From contig JAHBMJ010000236.1 of NCBI GenBank assembly GCA_018398765.1, forward strand, positions 1 through 37,500: a stretch of DNA of 37,500 nt, written 5' to 3'. The position numbers and the translations under genes were made by a program. Of the stretch, positions 28,795 to 37,500 are shown piece after piece (position 1 is the stretch's first letter; every line of letters starts with the position of its first letter). Under the pieces are notes generated by a model. It was given only the letters and a program-made list of their open reading frames with translations, searched no databases and was not told the origin of the DNA. The stretch is from Chromera velia (Eukaryota > Sar > Chromeraceae).

Positions 28795-29298
28795 GCCGGG
28801 CTTCGGGCTCCACCCCCTGGAGACCTTCATATACATAAATTAAAGCCCACGTACCATGCGTGTGCATAATCACGAGTACATCCAACCAGTTGGGTGAGTG
28901 CCTCGGGAGGCTATTTAGGGGGTCGGCCATAATTTGATTGCATGATGCAAACGCGTACCATCAGGGGCTTGGGTATATCTTGCCTGCAACCGGTAAGTAT
29001 CTAGGGCTACGCGGCAATGTGTGCAAAATATGCTTTTCGGGACCGCGTATGTGTATGCACGCTTATACAACTCCGTGCGAGTTACTTGAGGGGCACGTAT
29101 ATCATGAGGAGCGAATTAAGTGTGATCGCGGCTCCGGCAAGTTGCTTGAGGGGCATATTTTGGAATTAGGGCGACACCGTGATAGATAAACAAACAGACA
29201 GACACTGAGCCCCCCCCCCCAAAAATGAAAAAATGCTGTGGCCCCTAAGCTACGATATCTGTAGCCCAAACCAAAAGGAAAAAAGTAAAGGTGAGCCC
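28795..29298. other. Gene-free left flank of the gag array
   Basis: It includes two related segments, TTACTTGAGGGGCAC (about 29083) and TTGCTTGAGGGGCAT (about 29141), and a run of ten C at about 29211. No gene supported. Confidence 0.5.
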
Positions 29299-29640
29299 TG
29301 TTAGTATAACACGGCATGTACACGGCATGTCTTTGAGGCCACGGTCAAAACTAGCCGATTTTGATTGATCGATCGAGATTTCGATTGACGTGTACGTTCG
29401 CAACACTACAGTGTAGAAAGTACTAAAGCAACAGAAAGTACAAACTGACCGTTTGTCTAGGGAAAGTACTAAAGCAACAGAACTTCTGAATATGTTGAGA
29501 AGGGATCTGTGAGCTTTAGACTTCAGGAACAGTCAGAGTTAATCCTAAAAGTAGTAAGAAAGATAGTAGGACAGATTGTATTCATATCAGTGTATCAGAC
29601 TCCTGTGTCATTATATCTGATTTTCTTCTCTTTCTTTTAT
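29299..29640 (+). repeat. LTR-like segment, unit 1
   Basis: Begins TGTTAG and contains a tandem pair of ACACGGCATGT. The right end of the LTR could not be fixed: no TGG-starting primer site is evident before gag. Unlike the other three copies, this one has AAAGTACTAAAGCAACAGA twice (about 29417 and 29463) from a local duplication. Confidence 0.6.
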
Positions 29641-29662
29641 CTCGGTCAGAAGCTTCTCCGCC

Positions 29663-30622
29663 ATGTCTGCTCCCTCTTATTACTCTGGCGTTCCTCTTTT
29701 CAGTCTGTACTGTGAAGATGGAATACATGAAGAACGACAGGTCTTTCGCGAGGTTCTCGAATCAGTCCTTGCGGTGCATTTGAAGGCTGCAGGAACTAAC
29801 GTTGACAACCGTAACTCTCATCTCCGTTCGATCATTCTTGTTCCTGGTCAGGGAAAAGATGGGCGTCCCAATACCCACTATATATAGATCACGAGGACAG
29901 CTTTAGACACTGCCACGGCTACCCGCACTCAGAACACCGATCCCGTCTGCGAGAAAGACGTCATTGACGTCATTGAAAAGAAGGTTCTTGAGGACGCTCT
30001 GCGTCTCTGTCTGGATCTTCTCGCTGCAGTTCATGCCATTGAACAGCGGGAGGATGAATCGACTAAAGATTTCTGTGAGCGTTTCTACAAGCTCATCGGC
30101 AGTCATGATGTCGTTGGCAAAGCCGCCGGAAAGACCTTAGGAGATGATGACAAGTTTATCCAGATTGTGCGCGCCTTGCAGGACGGTCTACATCAAGCTT
30201 TTGCCCGGTTTCTCAACGGATCGGAGAACTGGTCCGATGTGGACACCGCCTTTGACAAGGAGATCTCGGAGGAGGCGATTTCAAAGCTTTGATCCTCTTG
30301 TCAGACGGCAAGGGGCCATCTTGCAGCGTCGGCTTTTGGAGTTCAGAAGAAGTCCCGCCCGCACCAGTTCCCTGCTACAACATCTTCCTCCACGGGGGAG
30401 GGATACCCCGCTCTAGCCTGCGGAGCGTGTGGCTTTCCCGCAGAAATGGGAACGCACATCTGCCCTGTACGTGACAAGCAGTGAAACAAGTGCAGCAGCA
30501 TTGAACACTCCACATGGATGTGTCGTTCTCAGATGGGACACGACCAGAGGGGCGAGCGCGGGTCTCACTCGGCAACCAGCAAATCCACTACAACTTCTGA
30601 AGACGCTATGTGGCTCGCGTAA
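29663..30622 (+). pseudogene. gag, unit 1 (three in-frame stops)
   Basis: Same length and frame as the open copy (320 codons) but with TAG at 29885, TGA at 30290 and TGA at 30482. The first two match CAG and CGA codons in other copies and so are C-to-T changes; the third replaces TGC, the first Cys of the second zinc knuckle, by C-to-A. The 3' end reads through TGG to a TAA at 30620. Confidence 0.8.
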
Positions 30623-31265
30623 GAGAGCAGTACGTATTGAGATAGAGACCGAAGGCTGAGGTTATACCTTCCGTTCAGATTTTGGTGTGACAGTCTGCCT
30701 GTCCGCAGAGTTAGGCAGGAGACAGAAAGAAGATCGATTGAGATTGAATGTTGAGTTCGACAATAAGAAAGTCTGACCACCCGGCAGAGTTTGGTGGCTG
30801 GTCGTCAAAAACTGTTTTCATCTTCTTGCGCGTTAGCGTCTGTGTGTGTATTTTTTTTTTCTGATATTTTGAATGCGTCGTTATCTTCCTCTCTCTTCCT
30901 TCGTCTTTGCACACAAGTTCAGCCAGCTTGTTGTGCTTGTTTTTGTGAAGGTGATGTGATGTTGACTGAGATCGGGGGGGCATGAGGCCTGTGTTTCTCT
31001 CTGATTAATTTCAACGTCTTTATGAAGCAGTTAGAGATGAGTGGCGCCAGAAAGTTTCTTTCATCAGCGTCAGCTTTTCTTCTACCTGCAAGTTAATGAC
31101 TTCGTGAGCGGGTGTGTAACTGCTGAAATGACGTTCCCATTACTTAGTGTCTGGACTTGCTGTCTCGGGTCGCCTTTTAAGGACCGCTAATGAGAATATC
31201 GTTTCTGTTGATTCATTTTTCTTGTGTTTGGACGGTTTGCAATCAAGCTTACAGTGAAACGCTTG

Positions 31266-31278
31266 ATTGAGGGGGGAA
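31266..31278 (+). promoter_or_regulatory. Polypurine tract before the unit 2 LTR
   Basis: A purine run ending GAGGGGGGAA abuts the TGTTAG of the next LTR, where plus-strand priming of an LTR element is expected. The same arrangement recurs at about 33236-33248 and 35204-35216. Confidence 0.7.
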
Positions 31279-31620
31279 TGTTAGCACAACACGGCATGTA
31301 CACGGCATGTCTTTGGGGCCACGGTCAGAGCTAGCCGATTTTGATTGATCGATCGAGATTTCAATTGACGTGTACGTTTGCAACACTGCAGTGCAGAAAC
31401 CGAACTAACCGTTTGTTTAGAGAAAGTACTAAAGCAATAGAACTTCTGAATATATTGAGAAAGGATCAGATTTTGTGAGCTCTAGACTTTAGGAACAGTC
31501 AGAGTTGATCCTAGAAGTAGTAAAAAAGATAGTAGGACAGATTGTATTCATATCAGTATGTTAGACTCCTGTGTCAGTATATCTGATTTTCTTCTCTTTC
31601 CTTCATCTCGGTCAGAAGCT
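31279..31620 (+). repeat. LTR-like segment, unit 2
   Basis: Starts with TGTTAG after the unit 1 polypurine tract. Shares with unit 3 a form reading GGATCAGATTTTGTGAGCTC where units 1 and 4 read GGATCTGTGAGCTT, so units 2 and 3 form one subtype. Confidence 0.65.
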
Positions 31621-31628
31621 TCTCCGCC

Positions 31629-32579
31629 ATGTCTGTTCCCTTTTATTACTCTGGCGTTCCTCTTTTCAGTCTGTACTGTGAAGATGGAACACATAAAGAA
31701 TGGCAGGTCTTTCGCGAGGTTCTCGAATCAGTCCTTGCGGTGCATTTGAAGGCTGCGGGAACTAACGTTGACAACCGTAACTCTCGTCTCCGTTCGATCA
31801 TTCTTGTTGCCGGTCAGGGAAAGGATGGGTGTCCCAATACCCACTATATACAGATCGCAAGGACAGCTTTGGACACTGCCACGGCTGCCCACACTCAGAA
31901 TACCGATCCTGTCCGCGAGAAAGACGTCATTGACGTCATCGAAAAGAAGGTTCTTGAGGACGCTCTGCGTCTCCATCTAGATCTTCTCGCTGTGGTTCAT
32001 GCCATTGAACAGCGGGAGGACGAATCGACTAAAGATTTCTGCGAGCGTTTCTATAAGCTCATCGGCAGTTATGATGTTGTTGGCAAAGCCGCCGGAAAGA
32101 CCTTAGGAGATGATGACAAGTTTATCCAGATCGTGTGCGCCTTGCAGGACGGTCTGCGTCAAGCCTTTGCCCGGTTTCTCAACGGATCGGAGAACTGGTC
32201 TGATGTGGACGCCGCCCTTGACAAGGTGATCTCGGAGGAGGCGATTTCAAAGCCTCGATCCTCTTGTCAGACGGTAAGGGACCATCTTGCAGCATCAGCT
32301 TTTGGAGTTCAGAAGAAGTCCCGCCCGCACCAGTTCCCTGCTACAACATCTTCCTCCACGGGAAAGGAATACCCCGCTCTGGTCTGCGGAGCGTGTGGCT
32401 TTCCTGCAGAAATGGGAACGCACATCTGCCCTGCACATGATAAGCAGTGCAATAAGTGTAGCAGCATTGAGCACTCTGTACGGATGTGTCGTTCTCAGAT
32501 GGGACGCGACCAGAAAGGCGAGTGCGGGTCTCACTCGGCAACCGGCAAATCCGCTACAACTTCTGAAGACGCCATGTAG
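31629..32579 (+). CDS. gag, unit 2: intact 316-aa Gag-like protein with CCHC zinc knuckle
   Basis: This is the only copy open from ATG (31629) to stop (TAG, 32577). The N-terminal and middle parts are helical and capsid-like (DESTKDFCERFYKLIG, DDKFIQIVCALQDGLRQAF), as in Ty3/gypsy or related Gag. The C terminus has CGACGFPAEMGTHICPA, then CNKCSSIEHSVRMCRS, a canonical CX2CX4HX4C nucleocapsid knuckle. In units 1 and 4 the frame reads TGG where this copy has its final TAG, adding three residues. Gag would form the particle and package RNA; replication would need pol from another element. Confidence 0.85.
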   Translation: MSVPFYYSGVPLFSLYCEDGTHKEWQVFREVLESVLAVHLKAAGTNVDNRNSRLRSIILVAGQGKDGCPNTHYIQIARTALDTATAAHTQNTDPVREKDVIDVIEKKVLEDALRLHLDLLAVVHAIEQREDESTKDFCERFYKLIGSYDVVGKAAGKTLGDDDKFIQIVCALQDGLRQAFARFLNGSENWSDVDAALDKVISEEAISKPRSSCQTVRDHLAASAFGVQKKSRPHQFPATTSSSTGKEYPALVCGACGFPAEMGTHICPAHDKQCNKCSSIEHSVRMCRSQMGRDQKGECGSHSATGKSATTSEDAM

Positions 32580-33248
32580 CTCACATAAGAGAGCAGTGCA
32601 CATTGAGATAGAGACCGAAGGCTGAAGTTATACCTTCTGTTCAAATTTCGGTATGACAGTCTGCCTGTCCACAGAGTTAGGCAGGAGACAGAAAGAAGAT
32701 CGATTGAGATTGAATGTCGAGTTCGACAATAAGAAAGTCTGACCACCCGGCAGAGTTTGGTGGCTGGTCGTCAGAAACTGTTTTCATCTTTTTGTGCGTT
32801 AGCGTCTGTGTGTGTGTTTTTTTTTTTTTTCTGATATTTTGAATGCGTCGTTATCTTCCTCTCTCTTCCTTCGTCTTTGCACACAAGTTCAGCCAGCTTG
32901 TTGTGCTTGTTTTTGTGAAGGTGATGTGATGTTGACTGAGATCGGGGGGGCATGAGGCCTGTATTTCTCTCTGATTGATTTCAACGTCTTCATGAAGCAG
33001 TTAGAGATGAGTGGCGCCAGAAAGTTTCTTTTATCAGCGTCAGCTTTTCTTCTATCTATAAGTTAATGACTTCGTGAGCGGGTGTGTAACTGCTGAAATG
33101 ACGTTCCCATTACTTAGTGTCTGGACTTGCTGTCTTGGGTCGCCTTTTAAGGACGGCCAATGAGAATGTCGTTTCTGTCGATTCATTTTTCTTATGTTTG
33201 GACGGTTTGCAATCAAGCTTGCAGTGAAATGCTTGATTGAGGGGGGAA

Positions 33249-33590
33249 TGTTAGCGCAACACGGCATGTACACGGCATGTCTTTGGAGCCACGGTCAGAG
33301 CTAGCCGATTTTGATTGATCGATCGAGATTTCGATTGACGTGTACGTTTGCAACACTGCAGTACAGAAACCGAACTGACCGTTTGTCTAAGGAAAGTACC
33401 AAAGCAACAGAACTTTTGAATATATTGAGAAAGGATCAGATTTTGTGAGCTCTAGACTTTAGGAACAGTCAGAGTTGATCCTAGAAGTAGTAAAAAAGAT
33501 AGTAGGACAGATTGTATTCATATCAGTGTGTTAGACTCCTGTGTCAGTATATCTGATTTTCTTCTCTTTCCTTCATCTCGGTCAGAAGCT
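33249..33590 (+). repeat. LTR-like segment, unit 3
   Basis: Close to the unit 2 copy, with the same GATCAGATTTTG form. Contains the paired ACACGGCATGT and GATTGATCGATCGAGATT words. Confidence 0.65.
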
Positions 33591-33598
33591 TCTCCACC

Positions 33599-34549
33599 AT
33601 GTCTGCTCCCTCTTATTACTCTGGCGTTCCTCTTTTCAGTCTGTACTGTGAAGATGGAACACATAAAGAATGGCAGGTCTTTCGCGAGGTTCTCGAATCA
33701 GTCCTTGCGGTGCATTTGAAGGCTGCGGGAACTAACGTTGACAACCGTAACTCTCGTCTCCGTTCGATCATTCTTGTTGCCGGTCAGGGAAAGGATGGGT
33801 GTCCCAATACCCACTATATACAGATCGCAAGGACAGTTTTGGACACTGCCACGGCTGCCCACACTCAGAACACCGATCTTGTCCGCGAGAAAGACGTCAT
33901 TGACGTCATCAAAAAGAAGGTTCTTGAGGACGCTCTGCGTCTCCATTTAGATCTTCTCGCTGTGGTTCATGCCATTGAACAGCGGGAGGACGAATCGACT
34001 AAAGATTTCTGTGAGCGTTTCTACAAGCTCATCGGTAGTTATGATATTGTTGGCAAAGCCGCCGGAAAGACCTTAGGAGATGATGACAAGTTTATCTAGA
34101 TTGTGTGCGCCTTGCAGGACGGTCTGCGTCAAGCCTTTACCCGGTTTCTCAACGGATCGAAGAACTGGTCCGATGTGGACGCCGCCCTTGACAAGGTGAT
34201 CTCGGAGGAGGTAATTTCAAAGCCTCGATCCTCTTGTCAGACGGCAAGGGACCATCTTGCAGCATCGGCTTTTGGAGTTCAGAAGAAGTCCCGCCCGTAC
34301 CAGTTCCCTGCTACAACATCTTCCTCCATGGGAGAGGGATACCCCGCTCTGGTCTGCGGAGTGTATGGCTTTCCTGCAGAAATGGGAATGCACATCTGCC
34401 CTGCACATGATAAGCAGTGCAATAAGTGCAGCAGCATTGGGCACTCTGTACGGATGTGTCGTTCTTAGATGGGACGTGACCAGAAAGGCGAGTGCGGGTC
34501 TCACTCGGCAACCGGCAAATCCGCTACAACTTCTGAAGACGCCATGTAG
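33599..34549 (+). pseudogene. gag, unit 3 (two in-frame TAG stops)
   Basis: Colinear with the unit 2 gag. Stops at 34097 and 34466 both replace CAG codons present in other copies (C-to-T). A Cys-to-Tyr change alters the CGACG segment (reads CGVYG). The second knuckle CNKCSSIGHSVRMC is intact in sequence but lies after the first stop. Confidence 0.8.
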
Positions 34550-35216
34550 CTCACGTAAGAGAGCAGTGCGCATTGAGATAGAGACCGAAGGCTGAGGTTA
34601 TACCTTCTGTTCAAATTTCGGTGTGACAGTCTGCCTGTCCGCAGAGTTAGGCAGGAGACAGAAAGAAGATCGATTGAGATTGAATGTTGAGTTCGACAAT
34701 AAGAAAGTCTGACCACCCGGCAGAGTTTGGTGGCTAGTCTTGAAAAACTGTTTTCATCTTCTTGTGCGTTAGCGTCTGTGTGTGTGTGTTTTTTTTTTCT
34801 GATATTTTGAATGCGTCGTTATCTTCCTCTCTCTTCCTTCATCTTTGCACACAAGTTCAGCCAGCTTGTTGTGCTTGTTTTTGTGAAGGTGATGTGATGT
34901 TGACTGAGATCGGGGGGGCATGAGGCCTGTATTTCTCTCTGATTGATTTCAACGTCTTTATGAAGCAGTTAGAGATGAGTGGCGCCAGAAAGTTTCTTTT
35001 ATCAGCGTCAGCTTTTCTTCTATCTATAAGTTAATGACTTCGTGAGCGGGTGTGTAACTGCTGAAATGACGTTCCTATTACTTAGTGTCTGGACTTGCTG
35101 TCTTGGGTCGCCTTTTAAGGACGGCCAATGAGAATGTCGTTTCTGTCGATTCATTTTTCTTGTGTTTGGACGGTTTGCAATCAAGCTTACAGTGAAACGC
35201 TTGATTGAGGGGGGAA

Positions 35217-35555
35217 TGTTAGCGCAACACGGCATGTACACGGCATGTCTTTGGGGCCACGGTCAGAGCTAGCCGATTTTGATTGATCGATCGAGATTTC
35301 GATTGACGTGTACGTTTGCAACACTGCAGTACAGAAACCGAACTGACCGTTTGTCTAGGCAAAGTACCAAAGCAACAGAACTTCTGAATATATTGAGAAG
35401 GGATCTGTGAGCTTTAGACTTCAGGAACAGTCAGAGTTGATCCTAGAAGTAGTAAAAAAGATAGTAGGACAGATTGTATTCATATCAGTGTGTCAGACTC
35501 CTGTGTCATTATATCTGATTTTCTTCTCTTTCCTTCATCTCGGTCAGAAGCTTCT
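35217..35555 (+). repeat. LTR-like segment, unit 4
   Basis: Starts TGTTAG after the unit 3 polypurine tract and has the GGATCTGTGAGCTT form shared with unit 1. Confidence 0.65.
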
Positions 35556-35560
35556 CTGCT

Positions 35561-36526
35561 ATGTCTGCTCCCTCTCATTACTCTGGCGTTCCTCTTTTCA
35601 GTCTGTACTGTGAAGATGGAACACATGAAGAATGGCAAGTCTTTCGCGAGGTTCTCGAATCAGTCCTTGCGGTGCATTTGAAGGCTGCGGGAACTAACGT
35701 TGACAACCGTAACTCTCGTCTCCGTTCGATCATTCTTGTTGCCGGTCAGAGAAAGAATGGACGTCCCAATACCCACTACATGTAGATCGTGAGGACAGCT
35801 TTGGACACTGCCACGGCTGCCCGCACAGTGACTCAGAACACCGATCCCGTCTGCGAGAAAGATGTCATTGACGCCATCGAAAAGAAGGTTCTTGAGGACG
35901 CTCTACATCTCCGTCTGGATCTTCTCGCTGCGGTTCATGCCATTGAACAGCGGGAGGACGAATCGACTAAGGATTTCTGCGAGTGTTTCTACAAGCTCAT
36001 CGGTAGTTATGATATCGTTAGCAAAGCCGCCGGAAAGACCATAGGAGATGATGACAAGTTTATTCAGATCGTGCGCGCCTTGCAGGACGGTCTGCGTCAA
36101 GCCTTTGCCTGGTTTCTCAACGGATCGGAGAACTGGTCCGATGTGGATGCCGCCCTTGACAAGGTGATCTCGGAGGAGGCGATTTCAAAGCCTCGATCCT
36201 CTTGTCAGACGGCAAGGGGCCATCTTGCAGCGTCGGCTTTTGGAGTTCAGAAGAAATCCCGCCCGCACCAGTTCCCTGCTACAACATCTTCCTCCACGGG
36301 AAAGGGATACTCCGCTCTGGTCTGCGGAGCGTATGGCTTTCCCGCAGAAATGGGAACACACATCTGCCCTGCACGTGACAAGCAGTGCAACAAGTGCAGC
36401 AGCATTGGGCACTCTGCACGGATGTGTCGTTCTCAGATGGGACACGACCAGAGGGGCGAGCGCAGGTCTCACTCGGCAACCAGCAAATCCACTACAACTT
36501 CTGAAGACGCCATGTGGCTCGCGTAA
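35561..36526 (+). pseudogene. gag, unit 4 (one in-frame TAG)
   Basis: Open except for TAG at 35783, the same codon that is TAG in unit 1. Carries a 6-base in-frame insertion (two residues, near 35826) absent from the other copies. Ends MWLA-stop at 36526 like unit 1. The zinc knuckle reads CNKCSSIGHSARMC. Confidence 0.8.
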
Positions 36527-37093
36527 GAGAGCAGTGCGCATTGAGATAGAGACCGAAGGCTGAGGTTATACTTTCCGTTCAGATTTTGGTGTGACAGTCT
36601 GCCTGTCCGCAGAGTTAGGCAGGAGACAGAAAGAAGATCGATTGAGATTGAATGTTGAGTTCGACAATAAGAAAGTCTGACCACCCGGCAGAGTTTGGTG
36701 GCTGGTCGTCAGAAACTGTTTTCATCTTCTTGCGCGTTAGCGTCTGTGTGTGTGTTTTTTTTTTTTCTGATATTTTGAATGCGTCGTTATCTTCCTCTCT
36801 CTTCCTTCGTCTTTGCACACAAGTTCAGCCAGCTTGTTGTGCTTGTTTTTGTGAAGGTGATGTGATGTTGACTGAGATCGGGGGGGCATGAGGCCTGTGT
36901 TTCTCTCTGATTGATTTCAACGTCTTTATGAAGCAGTTAGAGATGAGTGGCGCCAGAAAGTTTCTTTTATCAGCGTCAGCTTTTCTTCTACCTGCAAGTT
37001 AATGACTTCGTGAGCGGGTGTGTAACTACTGAAATGACGCTCCCATTACTTAGTGTCTGGACTTGCTGTCTTGGGTCGCCTTTTAAGGACGGC
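36527..37093 (+). other. 3' non-coding part of unit 4, cut short
   Basis: Colinear with the 3' regions of units 1-3 (at 30623, 32580, 34550), including a (GT)n(T)n tract near 36746 whose length differs in each unit. It stops at 37093 before the polypurine tract and next LTR, at an N. Confidence 0.75.
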
Positions 37094-37094
37094 N
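37094..37094. other. Single N: assembly join
   Basis: An ambiguous base sits exactly where the unit 4 3' region (TTTTAAGGACGGC) is fused to the interior of gag (TGCGTCAAGCC). GGACGG occurs at the matching place on both sides, so a short-homology misjoin is likely. Confidence 0.8.
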
Positions 37095-37500
37095 TGCGTC
37101 AAGCCTTTGCCTGGTTTCTCAACGGATCGGAGAACTGGTCCGATGTGGATGCCGCCCTTGACAAGGTGATCTCGGAGGAGGCGATTTCAAAGCCTCGATC
37201 CTCTTGTCAGACGGCAAGGGGCCATCTTGCAGCGTCGGCTTTTGGAGTTCAGAAGAAATCCCGCCCGCACCAGTTCCCTGCTACAACATCTTCCTCCACG
37301 GGAAAGGGATACTCCGCTCTGGTCTGCGGAGCGTATGGCTTTCCCGCAGAAATGGGAACACACATCTGCCCTGCACGTGACAAGCAGTGCAACAAGTGCA
37401 GCAGCATTGGGCACTCTGCACGGATGTGTCGTTCTCAGATGGGACACGACCAGAGGGGCGAGCGCAGGTCTCACTCGGCAACCAGCAAATCCACTACAAC
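37095..37500 (+). pseudogene. Partial gag copy, duplicate of unit 4
   Basis: The 406 bases after the N match 36093-36498 at every position I compared, including changes found only in unit 4 (TGCCTGG, GTGGATGCC, GGATACTCCGC). It is the C-terminal half of gag without a start. It is most likely the same locus repeated by assembly rather than a fifth unit. Confidence 0.75.

Follow-up and report, generated by a model that had tools for sequence, protein, structure and literature searches.

TR-GAG elements were reportedly described in plants by Chaparro et al. in 2015. Transposition of such elements is documented in Arabidopsis ddm1 (PMC8704663), and gag-only Copia families, such as Copia-N1_Ec32, are present in the brown alga Ectocarpus (PMC12477816). 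Tandemly arranged LTR retrotransposons are described in plants, with cases from Drosophila and kangaroo cited as well (PMC11899658). Neither copia elements with gag alone nor tandem LTR arrays are new to the literature. Priming by half tRNAs is likewise on record for copia elements: Osser, Bryco and part of Gymco-II use tRNA-Met, and Bianca an edited tRNA-Ile (PMC6317226), while Drosophila copia and, going by a title, yeast Ty5 belong to the same class (PMC5371799). About 30 Mb of transposable elements is reported for the Chromera genome (PMC4501334); no paper that brings Chromera velia together with transposable elements and copia came up in the literature searched.

The locus described here lies in a window of 37,500 nucleotides from Chromera velia (the whole stretch of DNA that was analysed), where units of LTR and gag, called family C below, follow one another head to tail. 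Our main reading, to which we give a probability of about 0.75, is that the array is a TR-GAG-type non-autonomous Ty1/copia satellite, dependent on a copia helper and primed by half tRNA-Val, and that the tandem was formed afterwards or at insertion. Like the plant TR-GAG elements, it carries gag as its one ORF between two LTRs, lacks pol and presumably relies on an autonomous relative of the copia type as helper; the features found are flanking LTRs, a single gag with a knuckle (unit 2), the lack of pol and a target duplication (at the dispersed copy C3881). Unlike the plant elements, it has a half-tRNA primer site, a shared-LTR tandem and a more distant helper (gag 28% identical), and its host is probably not a land plant. 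The host is taken to be a photosynthetic eukaryote because the genome has 58 matches to the light-harvesting family. For one of these, PDB matches below the top entry (9vfj) carry fucoxanthin, Lhcr and related names, which may point to the red lineage; a search for a psbA-type family found none, and of alveolin-type proteins there are 11 matches, although the Caulobacter control gives a signal as well. The array also resembles Copia-N1_Ec32 in being copia-type, in having one ORF homologous to an autonomous gag and in occurring outside plants, a likeness by description only; neither a tandem nor a primer type is mentioned in the excerpt on the Ectocarpus families (PMC12477816). The alternation of LTR and internal region and the sharing of LTRs are as in plant tandem LTR retrotransposons and Cassandra arrays (PMC11899658, PMC7215508). 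However, Cassandra is without gag, whereas the internal regions here are gag only (PMC7215508).

Layout of the array and state of its gag

Table 1. Positions, in the window, of the features of the family C array
Feature	Positions	Strand	Remarks
Unit 1	29299..31278	+	1980 bp, complete, leftmost
Unit 2	31279..33248	+	1970 bp, complete
Unit 3	33249..35216	+	1968 bp, complete
Unit 4	35217..37093	+	1877 bp, incomplete, cut at seam
Single N	37094..37094	.	scaffolding seam
Partial repeat of unit 4 gag	37095..37500	+	406/406 identical to 36093-36498
LTR, unit 1	29299..29586	+	288 bp, TGTTAG...TTCATA
LTR, unit 2	31279..31552	+	274 bp
LTR, unit 3	33249..33522	+	274 bp
LTR, unit 4	35217..35484	+	268 bp
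Putative primer binding site, unit 1	29587..29601	+	13/15 complementary to tRNA-Val(AAC); C opposite A34
Putative primer binding site, unit 2	31553..31567	+	14/15 complementary to tRNA-Val(AAC) anticodon arm
Putative primer binding site, unit 3	33523..33537	+	15/15 complementary to tRNA-Val(AAC) anticodon arm
Putative primer binding site, unit 4	35485..35499	+	14/15; C opposite A34
Gag, unit 1	29663..30610	+	broken: 2 TGA, 1 TAG
Gag, unit 2	31629..32579	+	open, 316 aa, two zinc-finger-like motifs
Gag, unit 3	33599..34546	+	broken: 2 TAG
Gag, unit 4	35561..36514	+	broken: 1 TAG
Polypurine tract, unit 1	31269..31278	+	abuts unit 2 LTR
Polypurine tract, unit 2	33239..33248	+	abuts unit 3 LTR
Polypurine tract, unit 3	35207..35216	+	abuts unit 4 LTR

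The initial annotation had placed four units of 1968-1980 bp here, ending at 37093. The repeat itself stands and three units are complete within that size range, but the fourth is cut short. Position 37093 marks a seam in the assembly and does not close the array, whose right end is unreadable, since the bases after the N match unit 4 itself. These bases are either a duplicated contig end or the start of a fifth unit. Each unit has, in order, an LTR, a primer site and one gag, to which the three complete units add a polypurine tract, and the LTRs are common to neighbouring units across the array. Self-comparison by BLAST agrees with the periodicity first noted, the units sharing a colinear block at 93-94% identity. 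The LTRs span 268-288 bp (TGTTAG...TTCATA), and all four begin with TGTTAG, as had been claimed. So too the polypurine tract abuts the next LTR at three junctions, one per complete unit, where the sequence is GAGGGGGGAA, then TGTTAG. The TTCATA end was set by the C3881 target duplication and by analogy with family B, described below; an LTR end at CA (277 bp) was ruled out, as the target duplications of C3881 and family B put the end at ..ATA. The TGTTAG start is found in families B and C and in one of three family A copies, and in the listed sites of all three families the ..ATA end is followed by TCAG.

The tandem could be largely a product of short-read assembly, in which dispersed LTR-gag-LTR copies were chained via their near-identical LTRs. 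The seam and the exact duplication of unit 4 sequence at the right end point in this direction, as do exact stretches shared between units (224 bp in units 2 and 3, 156 bp in units 1 and 4, 116 bp in units 3 and 4), which exceed a short-read k-mer; the published Chromera velia assembly, if it is the one used here, was made with velvet at k=71 and SSPACE (PMC4501334). However, the three junctions lie within uninterrupted sequence, the units differ by 2-9%, varying by segment, so that each is distinct, and among the LTR matches listed (at least 14) few ends could be the missing flanks. We consider a largely artefactual tandem unlikely.

A gag with a CCHC knuckle had been described for every unit. 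The motif CX2CX4HX4C is found in units 2, 3 and 4, but in unit 1 the CCHC is disrupted. The gag reading frame is open in unit 2 alone, with in-frame stops numbering 3, 2 and 1 in units 1, 3 and 4, respectively. Pfam gave no match to the family C gag, and the assignment is by homology to a copia-linked gag. In the PDB, a profile search with an E limit of 1 gave 13 matches, of which the strongest had E 0.016; those near the top were Gag, nucleocapsid and Lin-28 chains that bind nucleic acid, aligned over the fingers. The predicted structure (pLDDT 40, pTM 0.23) is unusable. A search of viral contigs returned a single weak match of 28 residues (L058).

A domesticated, repeatedly copied gag had been named as an alternative, in which the gag would have multiplied in tandem as a gene of the host. 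One gag is open, the raw dN/dS, which takes no account of transition bias, is 0.33-0.57 across ten pairs, and synonymous changes between units 1 and 2 number 31 where 23.7 ± 3.8 would be expected. However, three of the four comparisons tested agree with neutrality when transition-only change is simulated, three of the four units carry stops, the LTR, primer site and polypurine tract are retained, and one copy elsewhere in the genome is flanked by a target duplication. Because the drift of the array gag looks close to neutral and only the unit 2 gag is open, we regard domestication as extremely improbable.

Dispersed copies and related families in the genome

That the array lacks pol is borne out: the units, with 0.27 kb of LTR, 0.95 kb of gag and 0.67 kb of 3' part, have no room for it, and nothing in the window matches the family A reverse transcriptase. 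A dispersed copy with target-site duplication, sought in the genome as the initial annotation had advised, is present on C3881, where LTR-gag-PPT-LTR has TCGCA on either side. This 5-bp duplication indicates that the unit is a transposon. C3881 is the only dispersed near-full family C copy known, and its gag is broken; target duplications are absent at the family C LTRs of C211 and C108. At least 14 family C LTR matches are found in the genome. An autonomous partner with the same LTR and a pol, also sought, was not found: in the sequence examined around the LTR matches listed (at least 14), no pol of the family A type runs in their orientation, and the family A pol proteins match none of the C-LTR loci except for a reverse nested copy on C2641. 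At this last locus two C-type LTR pieces lie about 8 kb apart, but it was rejected as the partner, the copia genes there being in opposite orientation; the family A-type pol is a nested insertion in reverse, and a second reverse-transcriptase element is nested beside it. C604 carries the same nested element.

The same genome has a second gag-only family, B, with eight loci. Five are full-length (2855-2913 bp, LTRs of about 725 bp, TGTTAG...TTATA) and all five have 5-bp target duplications, three exact and two with one mismatch; at none of the eight loci do the family A pol proteins match. Family A is an autonomous Ty1/copia family with gag, integrase and reverse transcriptase. Downstream of its gag are rve (E=8e-11) and RVT_2 (E=9e-12), and on C377 rve is followed by RVT_2; integrase upstream of reverse transcriptase is the hallmark of copia. 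The family A gag matches the family C gag at E 2e-9, 2e-7 and 8e-6 (three copies) and the family B gag at E 3e-14 at best, and has a weak match, below cut-off, to the copia-type Retrotran_gag_2 (E=0.0019). All three gags share the spacing CX2C...HXCP...CNXC and are mutually about 25-30% identical, so each gag lineage appears to be old. Neither B nor C has pol, and both are filed under Ty1/copia by gag homology. The C3881 target duplication, the second gag-only family and the homologous gag in a pol-bearing copia family together favour the original proposal of a non-autonomous gag-carrying LTR family, with family A as a candidate helper.

Families B and C might instead be chance remnants of autonomous elements after internal deletion and not established gag-only families, given that the family A gag is homologous and pol-linked. 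However, the five full-length B copies, each inserted at its own site, have one structure and target duplications, the low identity among the gags speaks for old lineages, and family A-type pol is absent from the eight B loci and the C copies. Such an origin seems quite improbable to us.

The putative primer site

In families B and C, the site adjoining the LTR can base-pair with the anticodon arm of the genome's own tRNA-Val(AAC). Complementarity is 12-15/15 in seven of the eight family C copies scanned (C211 has no entry) and 14/15 in three of six family B sites, the remaining three carrying a 2-base insertion; the best score at 29,000 control positions is 11/15. The family A site is only a partial match (9/15 ungapped), so that helper and satellites differ there. 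A C lies opposite A34 in 4/7 C sites, 5/6 B sites and, with a one-base insertion permitted, 3/3 A sites, as expected for inosine at A34. When a tRNA arm pattern was predicted from the combined B and C primer sites and then searched in the genome, it gave 4 hits, compared with 28 for the reversed control pattern; two of the four are tRNA-Val(AAC) genes and the other two are not predicted tRNA genes. An earlier pattern, from one B copy, had two hits, C3830 (the element itself) and C1236.

This complementarity suggests that B and C are primed by half tRNA-Val(AAC), the tRNA presumably being used in cut form. A primer site that pairs with half a tRNA is a trait they share with Osser, Bryco, part of Gymco-II and Bianca (PMC6317226), and with Drosophila copia and, going by a title, yeast Ty5 (PMC5371799). 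As in Bianca, the partner would be a tRNA in which A34 has been changed to I by editing; unlike in all of these, the tRNA is tRNA-Val(AAC). No half tRNA-Val primer was found in the literature searched, which covered few subscription journals. The broader proposition, that a single copia lineage and the two gag-only families it carries as satellites all prime from half tRNA-Val with inosine at A34, is put forward tentatively, its chances being slightly under even. If it is true, the satellites would keep only cis signals and their own Gag.

Proposed mobilisation, possible origins of the tandem, and significance

In the proposed scheme, family C RNA would be packaged by its own Gag, that of the helper or both, with reverse transcriptase and integrase coming from an autonomous relative of the copia type, either family A or one close to it. 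The minus strand would be started by the 3' end of tRNA-Val(AAC) cut at the 3' end of the anticodon stem, and integration would leave the 5-bp target duplications. The shared-LTR tandem may have come from later unequal LTR-LTR exchange, much as the initial annotation had proposed, or from a multi-LTR product at insertion, and the array would since have decayed through C-to-T change.

The two routes to the tandem leave the identity of the element the same. At 40 of 51 informative sites the outer units resemble each other and the inner units likewise. This pattern hints at exchange or conversion in the course of time and speaks against a single insertion of a multi-LTR product (by read-through of a one-LTR circle) in place of later LTR exchange. 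However, single insertion is favoured for the rice tandems, for which both routes are held possible (PMC11899658), and the pairing does not exclude a one-step origin, as conversion afterwards is also compatible with it. We take the one-step route to be possible but somewhat doubtful.

The main reading, of a copia satellite with a helper, would place two gag-only satellite families in a photosynthetic lineage outside plants, with a plausible helper bearing a related primer site in the same genome. With it, tRNA-Val would join the few tRNAs listed as half-tRNA primers. A primer site this unusual would give a specific handle on which helper moves which satellite, and on why satellites keep gag.

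Layout, decay and origin of the array

When the window was compared with itself, a single colinear repeat block was seen at 29299-37093, which bears out the periodicity reported by the initial annotation. The four units of 1968-1980 bp claimed there are found for units 1-3, while unit 4 is shorter and ends at a single N (Table). The 406 bases that follow the N are an exact copy of unit 4 positions 36093-36498, so the array edge at 37094 is an assembly seam; the contig continues past the window, where the right end of the array is unreadable. All three inner junctions read GAGGGGGGAA followed directly by TGTTAG, a polypurine tract abutting the next LTR, as had been described. In the array units, the LTRs of this family (family C) are 268-288 bp (TGTTAG...TTCATA). 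The primer site opens a leader of 76 bp in unit 2, where gag is 316 aa long; the ~0.67 kb 3' of gag are non-coding, with the polypurine tract at the end. One gag with a CCHC knuckle per unit had been described. Gag is open in unit 2 alone, where it carries zinc-finger-like motifs CX2CX8HXC and CX2CX4HX4C; units 1, 3 and 4 have three, two and one stops, respectively. Family C gag had no match in Pfam.

Features of the array and the rest of the window
Feature	Start	End	Remark
171-bp unit, repeated 2.1 times	1	353	100% match, AG/AC-rich
Ty3/gypsy-type element, remains	6000	14500	
RVT_1 of these remains	11807	12643	E=6e-30
Integrase zinc-binding of these remains	13348	14445	E=1e-19
Unit 1	29299		1980 bp
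Unit 2	31279		1970 bp
Unit 3	33249		1968 bp
Unit 4	35217		1877 bp, cut by single N at 37094

Among the variable columns of the four units, 175 contain transitions only, against 10 that do not. Single-unit changes are strongly directional (107 C-to-T or G-to-A vs 18 T-to-C or A-to-G). Counted by sequence context, 95/868 C sites changed vs 18/974 A/T sites, with peaks at CG (33/186) and CA (32/244). This decay may be methylation-driven or RIP-like. The transition excess is not special to the array, because pairs of a second gag-only family, B, have transition-to-transversion ratios of 9 to 15. Raw dN/dS of gag is 0.33-0.57; when change restricted to transitions was simulated, three of four comparisons were consistent with neutrality, and between units 1 and 2 synonymous change is about two standard deviations in excess.

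At 40 of the 51 two-against-two informative sites, unit 1 pairs with 4 and unit 2 with 3; seven sites support 1+2 and 3+4, and four support 1+3 and 2+4. Compared with four equal copies, recurrent exchange or conversion is the better fit to this grouping, which is also compatible with a one-step insertion of the tandem. Room is left for short-read misjoining as well, since the units share exact stretches of up to 224 bp.

Dispersed copies and related families

The array unit is a transposon. Its LTR matches at least 14 places in the 178-Mb genome (a lower bound), four in the array and 10 on six other contigs. The genome search for a copy flanked by a target-site duplication found one on contig C3881, a lone LTR-gag-polypurine tract-LTR copy with TCGCA at both ends. 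Its gag has stops, and its 5' LTR is split by a later insertion of ~6.8 kb, possibly a DNA transposon, that repeats TGCA. By eye, this insertion (locus L044, 1087-7861) has imperfect inverted ends. No target duplication was seen at the LTRs of C211 and C108. On C108 (L043, 4706-5418) two C-type LTRs are inverted and nearly abutting (3 bp between matches), and on C211 (L042) a C-type LTR with bases 1-11 of the primer site lies within a TTCC microsatellite. The C2083 match is a fragment, and the copies on C604 and C2641 are interrupted by nested elements. One nested element, found next to C-type LTRs at both places (L046 on C604, and C2641), has a GIY-YIG-like stretch and a reverse transcriptase of YMDD type; Penelope-like is our guess.

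Of the 19 matches to a gag search, five lie in the array and its repeated end and three are pieces on C3881 and C604; family B accounts for eight and family A for three. Family B has LTRs of ~725 bp (TGTTAG...TTATA) and a total length of 2855-2913 bp. Eight loci were fetched, with five full-length copies, three of them with exact 5-bp flanks (GGATC/GGATC, CTATG/CTATG, TCTTT/TCTTT) and two with TGTTA/TGTTG and GTCAT/GTAAT. Another copy (L023, C1525:107067-110687) has the 5' LTR and internal region without the 3' LTR, and ACTAA on both sides.

Family A, the presumed helper, is an autonomous copia, in the order gag, integrase (rve, 8e-11), reverse transcriptase (RVT_2, 9e-12) on C377. Its gag matches Retrotran_gag_2 weakly (E 0.0019, under cut-off). 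Identity to family C gag is 28% for family A and 25% for family B. The window and 20 loci surrounding copies of C, B and A were compared with the integrase and reverse transcriptase of family A. Matches were confined to A copies (C377, C235, C2301 and a reverse nested one on C2641), except that the integrase weakly matched (26%, E 3e-9) the Ty3-type element of the window; the B and C copies gave none, and the claimed lack of pol stands. The C235 copy shares its contig with the window and is found past the array, in inverted orientation. The Ty3/gypsy-type remains include a protease-like stretch below cut-offs, and an LTR pair sought at 4-17 kb was not found.

Primer site and tRNA-Val

The primer site of unit 3, directly 3' of the LTR, is TCAGTGTGTTAGACT. 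From the C and B sites jointly, an anticodon arm TCAGT-CTAACAC-ACTGA was predicted and its core searched in the genome. Two of the four matches are in tRNA-Val(AAC) genes on one contig, with the arm exactly as predicted. The four matches are no enrichment, because a reversed control pattern gave 28; the argument is the location of these two. Over 15 bases, the C sites match the tRNA at 13, 14, 15, 14, 14, 13 and 12 (seven of eight copies; C211, keeping 11 site bases, gave no row). Sites from six of the eight B loci match at 14, 14 and 14, and, in three with a two-base insertion, at 8, 8 and 8 ungapped. The three A copies match at 9, 9 and 9, interrupted by one extra base. Control positions in the window (29,000, one strand) gave at best 11/15.

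In eukaryotes A34 of tRNA-Val(AAC) is edited. The base opposite it is C in four of seven C sites and five of six B sites, and otherwise T. This mix lends mild support to pairing with an edited A34, and only mild because C-to-T change is rampant here.

Gag-only copia-type elements are described from plants (TR-GAG; PMC8704663) and Ectocarpus (PMC12477816), and shared-LTR tandems from plants (PMC11899658; PMC7215508). Half tRNA-Met serves Osser, Bryco and part of Gymco-II in plants, and the plant Bianca elements are complementary to a half tRNA-Ile in which A34 is edited to I (PMC6317226). The C and B sites match tRNA-Val(AAC). A literature search for a half tRNA-Val primer found no precedent. 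As far as that search reaches, what is new is the putative use of half a tRNA-Val as primer by two satellite families and, with a less perfect site, by the helper presumed for them.
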